Assembly (NCBI GenBank): GCA_018262985.1
Contig: JADFDI010000010.1
Location: forward strand, 73,274 to 109,879
Length of the DNA: 36,606 nt
Source: Spirochaetota bacterium
GTDB lineage: Bacteria; Spirochaetota; Spirochaetia; Treponematales; UBA12059
Direction of reading: 5' to 3'
Position 1 is the stretch's first letter; every line of letters begins with the position of its first letter. Shown piece by piece: positions 35,017-35,990 of the stretch. A program made the translations under genes and the position numbers. The notes under the pieces are model-generated. The model was not told the DNA's origin. It saw nothing but the letters and a program-made list of their open reading frames with translations, and did no database searches.

Positions 35017-35886
35017 TCACTTCATCGTGCGGAACTTGTCCACCTTGGGGGCGATGACGACGCGGCAGTAGCCTTGCTCGGGGTTGCGGCGGAAATAGTC
35101 CTGGTGGTAGGCCTCGGCGGGCCAGTACGCCTTGAGGGGCTCGACCTGGGTGACTATGGGGTCGCGGAAGCGTTTTTGCGCCTCGCGGAGCGACGCTTCG
35201 ATGGCGCGGCGCTCGTCCTCGTCGGCGAAGAAGGCGATGGAACGGTATTGCTCGCCGACGTCGGCGCCCTGGCGGTCCTCCGTGGTGGGGTCGTGGACGG
35301 TCCAGAAGATTTCGAGCAAACGGGCGAGCGTCACGACCGCGGGATCGTAGCGGATCTTAACGACCTCGGCGTGGCCGGTGAGGCCGGTGGAGACTTCCTC
35401 GTAGCTCGGGTGCGCGCGGGAGCCGCCCGCGTAGCCGTTCTCGACGTCGGCGACGCCGGGGACGAGCTCGTAGACCGCTTCCAGGCACCAGAAGCAGCCG
35501 CCGCCCAGGACGAGTTCCTTGAAGGCAGAAGAGTCGGACACGGTGTACTCCTTTCCGAGGGGTGCCGGGTTCAGGAGGGCGTTGCGGGCGGCGAGGCGAT
35601 CGGCGTCGTCCGGGGGCGCGACGGGCGCGCAGGACGCGACGAGCGCGAGCGCGAGCGCGAGCGCGAGTATAGCGATACCCCCGCGGAGCGAGCTCTGTCC
35701 CTCGGGGAGCTTGCTCTGTCCCTCGGGGAGCTTGCTCTGTCCCTCGGGGAGCTTGCTCTGTCCCTCGGGGAGCTTGCTCTGTCCCTCGGGGAGCTTGCTC
35801 TGTCCCTCGGGGAGCTTGCTCTGTCCCTCGGGGAGCTTGCTCTGTCCCTCGGGGAGCGAGCTCTGTCCCTCGGGGATAGCCGCCAT
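35017..35886 (-). CDS. msrA: Peptide methionine sulphoxide reductase MsrA, lipoprotein with heptad-repeat N-terminus
   Basis: Repairs methionine-S-sulphoxide. The catalytic motif is GGGCFWCLEAVYE, followed by GYAGGSRAHPSYEEVSTGLTGHAEVVKI and QYRSIAFF; a late Cys (EQGYCRVV) could be the resolving residue. The signal peptide is RGGIAILALALALALVASC with a lipobox, so the protein is exported and lipid-anchored. Nine copies of a 7-residue unit PEGQS[KS]L sit between the initiator segment MAAI and this hydrophobic core, encoded by 21-bp GGGACAGAGC units (35690-35869). ATG 35886 is preferred (AGGA 5 nt upstream); ATG 35907 is in frame. Removing the array leaves MAAI-RGGIAILAL..., a normal signal peptide, so the array looks inserted. 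Confidence 0.9.
   Translation of the reverse strand: MAAIPEGQSSLPEGQSKLPEGQSKLPEGQSKLPEGQSKLPEGQSKLPEGQSKLPEGQSKLPEGQSSLRGGIAILALALALALVASCAPVAPPDDADRLAARNALLNPAPLGKEYTVSDSSAFKELVLGGGCFWCLEAVYELVPGVADVENGYAGGSRAHPSYEEVSTGLTGHAEVVKIRYDPAVVTLARLLEIFWTVHDPTTEDRQGADVGEQYRSIAFFADEDERRAIEASLREAQKRFRDPIVTQVEPLKAYWPAEAYHQDYFRRNPEQGYCRVVIAPKVDKFRTMK
35690..35869 (-). repeat. Nine-unit 21-bp array in the msrA signal region
   Basis: Plus-strand units begin at 35690, 35711, 35732, 35753, 35774, 35795, 35816, 35837 and 35858, exactly 21 bp apart. The outer two carry GAGCTCTGTCCC, the inner seven TTGCTCTGTCCC; every spacer is CTCGGGGAG or nearly so. A GCGCGA hexamer repeat (35639-35667) coding for the LALA signal core lies beside it. 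Confidence 0.95.
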
Positions 35887-35990
35887 CGCTTTCCTGACAG
35901 TATTCATAAACAAAAGATAGCCCTTCGCGGACTCAGGGGCAAACGCCGGCCGGGGGCGCTTCGCGCGCGTCTTTTTTTCCGTTCTTGCGC

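Follow-up and report, generated by a model that had tools for sequence, protein, structure and literature searches.

The window, by which we mean the whole stretch of 36,606 nucleotides analysed from this Spirochaetota bacterium, carries an msrA gene on its minus strand. Read from the ATG at 35907, the minus-strand frame encodes 296 residues in the order MNTVRKAMAAI, nine heptads of the form PEGQS(K/S)L, RGG, the hydrophobic core IAILALALALALVAS, C93 and the MsrA domain. The PMSR domain (Pfam PF01625) was matched over residues 134-283 of the scanned ORF (E=2.3e-60; E-values and P-values throughout ignore shared ancestry). The active-site motif is present as GGGCFWCLEA, which assigns the protein to MsrA. 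The hydrophobic core is followed by a lipobox with C93, and the long form is therefore a candidate lipoprotein whose processing is predicted. We found that a segment equivalent to IAILALALALALVAS-C93 is also present in MsrA of the sister species. The features of the locus are as follows.

35937-35942, minus strand: -35-like TTGCCC, 17 nt from the -10, an inferred promoter element read from the sequence
35914-35919, minus strand: -10-like TATCTT ending 6 nt before the ATG; TANNNT stands at the same offset in 16 of 19 related msrA genes
35875-35907, minus strand: ATG start and first 11 codons (MNTVRKAMAAI) of the long form, from the sequence
35686-35874, minus strand: array of nine 7-codon units PEGQS[KS]L with the core GGGACAGAGC in each (TRF span 35678-35876)
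35640-35667, minus strand: hexanucleotide repeat of 4.7 copies encoding the (AL)n hydrophobic signal core (TRF and sequence)
35629-35640, minus strand: lipobox VAS-C with Cys93, the predicted signal peptidase II site, read directly from the sequence
35548-35554, minus strand: Shine-Dalgarno sequence AAAGGAG, 6 nt before the GTG, identical in the sister species
35539-35541, minus strand: internal GTG start, V123, of a predicted cytosolic MsrA, from the sequence
35017-35907, minus strand: msrA long-form ORF, 296 aa plus stop (PF01625)
34950-34959, minus strand: single core copy downstream of msrA; the sister species (G001) shows a similar context behind its own msrA

A GTAC-containing repeat (GTACTATTGTAC ... 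AATAGTACAATG) at window 36008-36042 lies at the start of a divergent GntR-type regulator gene and is possibly the regulator's own operator.

TRF reported a 21-bp tandem array of 9.5 copies with 96% matches at 35678-35876, and the heptads that it encodes are residues 12-74 of the long form, after the 11-residue N-terminus. The first-pass annotation had described nine in-frame heptads in MsrA, lying before the hydrophobic core of a lipoprotein signal. Both TRF and the minus-strand translation bear this out, and the array lies, in frame, in the n-region of the signal. The seven inner units are identical and carry GAGCAAG, while the two outermost carry GAGCTCG, which is the most frequent core ending elsewhere. 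Since the hydrophobic core is also built on a hexanucleotide repeat, both halves of the msrA signal are repeat-derived. The array RNA has a strong predicted fold (-130 kcal/mol, z -3.8), and the modelled stem, standing just after the ATG, could lower translation of the long form. The flanks of the array, at window 35857-35890 and 35654-35684 (GCGATGGCGGCTATCCCC / GGGGGTATCGCTATACTCGC), are partially complementary and close the predicted RNA stem. The copy number given for the array is that of the assembly, and the comparison with relatives used one genome per species.

In the sister species of the same genus (G001) msrA begins MISLIKSQGAAPAGSEFRRSRLRTVLAAILAVPVLMAC and the array is absent. This msrA is divided over two contigs; its 5' part is complete (MISLIKSQGAAPAGSEFRRSRLRTVLAAILAVPVLMACAPGS) and free of the array, and the segment that follows is almost identical to that of the window. 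No msrA was detected in the third genus member (G002, 87% complete). In about 25 further relatives the signal is either short and ordinary or missing, with no array and no comparable n-region in any of them. Because the array is missing from the sister species and from all relatives inspected, it is derived. This comparison, which had been proposed earlier, upholds the reading of the array as inserted into the signal peptide, as none of the relatives shares the long N-terminus. A different short repeat, CCCGGAAGCTTCGTGACACC, is present in about 3 copies right upstream of msrA in the sister species (L049 about 340-560) and represents a second repeat family at this locus.

The promoter and start of the long form are conserved in layout, with TTGCCC-17-TATCTT-6-ATG in the window and TTGCCG-17-TATCTT-6-ATG in the sister species. 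Among 19 signal-bearing relatives, TANNNT stands exactly 6 nt before the long-form ATG in 16 and at 6 or 7 nt in 18, against a background of 1.8% for this spacing (P 8e-26 without ancestry correction). Nearly all of the long-form ATGs of signal-bearing relatives lack a preceding Shine-Dalgarno sequence (SD). Other genes of the same genome show a small excess of the TANNNT spacing before their first ATGs (about 245 kb of stretches). Large surveys take this pattern as a sign of leaderless genes (PMC3160421), and ATG 35907, with TATCTT ending 6 nt before it and no SD, agrees with the leaderless layout, in which a -10 box stands about 10 bp upstream of the start codon. Judged by this layout, the upstream ATG 35907 is a genuine start, predicted to be used on a leaderless mRNA. 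We also considered ATG 35886 (AGGA, 5 nt) as the start of the long form; the conserved leaderless spacing favours ATG 35907.

The best SD of msrA lies farther downstream, at the internal GTG 35541-35539, which is 30 codons past Cys93 and 12 codons before GGGCFW. The first-pass annotation saw no obvious start downstream of the array. Up to Cys93 it was right, as no ATG, GTG or TTG lies between the array and the Cys, but it missed the strong SD-GTG pair after the Cys. Downstream restart, which it listed as one option, is more than that: the start after the Cys is conserved and SD-led and would be expected to yield a cytosolic MsrA regardless of the array. In a first sample, 17 of 20 signal-bearing homologues have an SD-led ATG or GTG 6-18 codons before GGGCFW, compared with 57 of 3344 background windows (1.7%; P 9e-28, not corrected for shared ancestry). 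Counted by species, the figure for signal-bearing homologues of the same family is 14 of 15, and a second in-frame SD-led start is thus conserved among the relatives of this family. The linkers that carry these internal starts differ in sequence, so their retention points to selection rather than to a relic.

A leaderless ATG with TANNNT 6 nt upstream, together with an SD-led internal ATG or GTG, was seen at msrA loci in the ranges L009-L038 and L174-L182 and at L049. In a second sample, drawn from other families, the internal SD start was found in L174, L176 and L182, and several order relatives with a leaderless long-form msrA have no internal SD start. In the loci L179, L180, L183, L190 and L192, from another family of the order, the leaderless-type start lies 82-92 codons ahead of the active site, and an SD-led internal start beside the catalytic domain is missing; by sequence, their MsrA are possibly export-only versions. 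We rejected the dual start as a general trait, since no internal SD start was seen in most secreted or lipoprotein MsrA of other phyla or in several order relatives. Given this scarcity outside the family, the trait is limited to this family plus scattered cases. In the literature that we searched, mostly outside subscription journals, we found no description of a gene that pairs a leaderless start for a lipoprotein with an internal SD start, and searches on repeats in signal n-regions and on bacterial dual-localised isoforms returned nothing useful.

The core of the array, GGGACAGAGC[TC], is dispersed well beyond msrA. As the pattern GGGACAGAGCTC it has 125 exact copies in this genome, of which 81 are on the 110-kb contig that holds the window (C1); the reversed control pattern has 0 occurrences in the same genome. 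In the window alone GGGACAGAGC is present in 47 copies against 0.19 expected from dinucleotide shuffles. Over 113 copies the flanks read (A/G)GGGACAGAGC(T/C), and the core forms arrays with periods of 13, 14, 16, 19, 21 and 30 bp as well as solitary copies. It occurs across the order, where its copy number correlates with the number of RAYT-type Y1 transposase (PF01797) genes (rho 0.68, P 8e-8, 49 genomes). At least 4 core copies were found in 18 of 26 RAYT-bearing genomes and in 1 of 23 RAYT-free genomes. RAYT genes adjoin core clusters or sit within them: on C1 a RAYT gene with an HFH motif (PF01797) at C1:58100 has six core copies immediately upstream, and of the 14 core clusters in the complete genome G034, 12 are no more than 110 kb from a RAYT gene. 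Being both abundant and associated with a RAYT gene, the core qualifies as a RAYT-linked repeat family.

Core copies are concentrated in blocks around a RAYT gene rather than spread over the genome, as seen at G000 C1 (the whole 110 kb), G034 C1:682892-789090, G015 C1:382924-599663 and G030 C64:58912-74048, as if movement were mainly local. A related GGGACAG motif is present in both orientations near the RAYT gene of some order relatives. Around the RAYT genes of the order relatives L072 and L155 the related motif GGGGACAGACCC stands in both orientations, which suggests coevolving pairs of RAYT and motif.

At up to 2 mismatches in 149 genomes the full 21-bp unit is found in msrA and otherwise only as two single imperfect matches in other genomes. 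The dispersed core, together with a local flank, was therefore amplified in place. The repeat had earlier been treated as an msrA array; that is correct for the locus, while the source is a RAYT-linked core of the genome at large and not specific to MsrA. The 21-bp period also occurs in intergenic arrays on the same contig, at C1:33429 and window 10487, so a 7-codon unit is by itself no evidence of selection for frame. A 16-bp array of the same core (GGGACAGAGCTCGCGC) has 16 copies at window 29282-29537, and no Pfam-supported gene frame was found there. Three almost identical 39-bp repeats stand at window 32277-32393, a short way upstream of the likely ATG of a gene of AMP-binding type (long-chain acyl-CoA synthetase-like).

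Other candidate in-gene copies of the core were rejected as further cases of insertion. The copy in PrmC encodes the native VLCPRPDTE motif, and another, at the edge of a PAS domain, likewise looks like normal coding sequence. At C1:33429, the 21-bp array that precedes a response-regulator gene sits between genes, after the upstream stop and before the SD and ATG, and the core near a solute-binding-protein gene (window 30293) precedes the likely start.

The core is no classical REP. The 21-nt unit folds as DNA at -1.4 kcal/mol (z 0.11), a palindromic character not above that of shuffles, so the biology of classical REPs does not necessarily hold for it. No constant GTAG/CGTC or GT(A/G)G terminal tetranucleotide was found in the flanks of the 113 core copies, and the C1 RAYT gene has direct core copies upstream only, with no inverted downstream copy nearby.

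Taken together, our data favour a dual-start msrA in which an array derived from a RAYT-linked core was amplified within a segment predicted to be cleaved off, where it is most likely a tolerated passenger. From what can be read in the DNA, we regard this as the probable account, with appreciable room for others. A leaderless mRNA from ATG 35907 would give lipoprotein MsrA, and the strong internal SD with GTG 35541, after the lipoprotein Cys, would give cytosolic MsrA. The RAYT-linked core (GGGACAGAGC..) would have arisen in, or been inserted into, the stretch of the long form that separates codon 11 from the hydrophobic core, and tandem duplication of the 21-bp unit, presumably by slippage, would have brought it to nine copies. 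Standing before the signal core, the array would stay on the cytosolic side and be discarded by signal peptidase II. Neither mature enzyme should be altered by an array in this position, ahead of both the predicted signal peptidase II site and the internal start, provided that export tolerates about 77 residues before the core.

The first-pass annotation had further proposed that slippage could switch MsrA, and this part does not hold. Gain or loss of 21 bp alters only the length of the n-region, and the unit is in frame at any copy number; because whole-unit slippage keeps the frame, the array is not an on/off switch and does not behave as a phase-variable contingency locus. As a whole, the earlier interpretation is partly supported.

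The main rival is that export has been lost and the short form does the work: the array would disable or strongly weaken export, the long form would stay unprocessed and decay, and the cell would rely on the cytosolic MsrA from the internal GTG. No relative comes near the 77 residues, mostly hydrophilic, that precede the core here, and the stable predicted RNA stem just after the ATG would act in the same direction; yet the frame is intact from the ATG to the lipobox with no stop. The seven identical inner units fit a young insertion and an internal start is available, but the sister species shares the -35/-10 layout and the ATG. The hydrophobic core and lipobox are still good although the core has been rebuilt by the hexanucleotide repeat, and a leaderless ATG is independent of an upstream SD. 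We consider export loss unlikely on this evidence.

Whole-unit slippage might instead tune MsrA, shifting the ratio of lipoprotein to cytosolic enzyme through n-region length and RNA structure with the frame kept. The near-identical tandem units would permit this and the length of the predicted stem would scale with copy number, but similar arrays of 13, 14, 16, 19 and 21 bp are intergenic and have no such role, and no relative carries an array at msrA. We regard such tuning as improbable, and more improbable still the stronger form in which the array is a frame-neutral adjustable spacer that sets the envelope and cytosol shares of MsrA through its n-region length and a copy-number-dependent mRNA stem.

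Finally, it is very doubtful that the internal GTG is the sole true start, with the upstream part including the array an untranslated leader and the signal peptide spurious: the strongest SD of msrA is at this GTG, and REPs near ORF N-termini are often extragenic with translation starting downstream (a warning given in PMC3733652), but the signal core and lipobox Cys recur, in differing sequences, in the sister species and throughout most of the family, the leaderless -10/ATG spacing is conserved, and over the 23 codons that lead up to the GTG the sequence is nearly that of the sister species, with two of three differences silent.

Repeats of this general sort inside ORFs are already known, and the msrA array is a variation on them. 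Rickettsia palindromic elements (RPEs) are longer palindromes, usually with one insertion per site, whereas the msrA array is a tandem 21-bp non-palindromic unit. RPEs are tolerated in frame in protein genes, and N-terminal cases are reported to be expressed, as cited in PMC3733652. REPs inside ORFs are short dispersed repeats, some of them RAYT-linked, that are commoner near the N- than the C-terminus (Di Nocera et al. 2013, PMC3733652), and their clusters can encode 43-82 residues (PMC3733652). In contrast to these, the msrA core GGGACAGAGC is not a hairpin and has no GTAG or CGTC end, and its array is tandem, with a 21-bp period, inside a lipoprotein signal. The system resembles RAYT/REP systems (Nunvar et al. 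2010, PMC2817692) in its PF01797 gene with an HFH motif, in a linked repeat of more than 100 copies and in their correlated presence across genomes. It differs from them in that the copies upstream of the C1 RAYT gene, six in number, are direct and no inverted copy lies close by downstream, and in that the msrA core lacks a GT(A/G)G head and is not palindromic. PARCELs are tandem coding repeats with DNA dyad symmetry, often in membrane-targeted proteins (PMC2996958); their 25-residue amphipathic motif, found in ORFs of unassigned function, differs from the msrA heptad.

For the two forms of MsrA, the closest likeness is Neisseria PilB (MsrA/B), where one msr gene reportedly gives an exported form and, from an internal start, a shorter cytoplasmic form (PMC2907840). 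The short PilB form loses the thioredoxin domain and has been called inactive, and its existence is disputed (PMC6372556). By comparison, the MsrA domain is complete in the short form predicted here, and the long form is predicted to be leaderless.

The msrA array suggests that a place where a RAYT-linked repeat can be tolerated within a gene is the cleaved signal segment. It exposes a compact family-wide layout in which the repair enzyme would be made in an exported version from a leaderless start and in a cytosolic version from an internal Shine-Dalgarno start. The array would also serve as a natural insertion test of the maximal length of a lipoprotein n-region.
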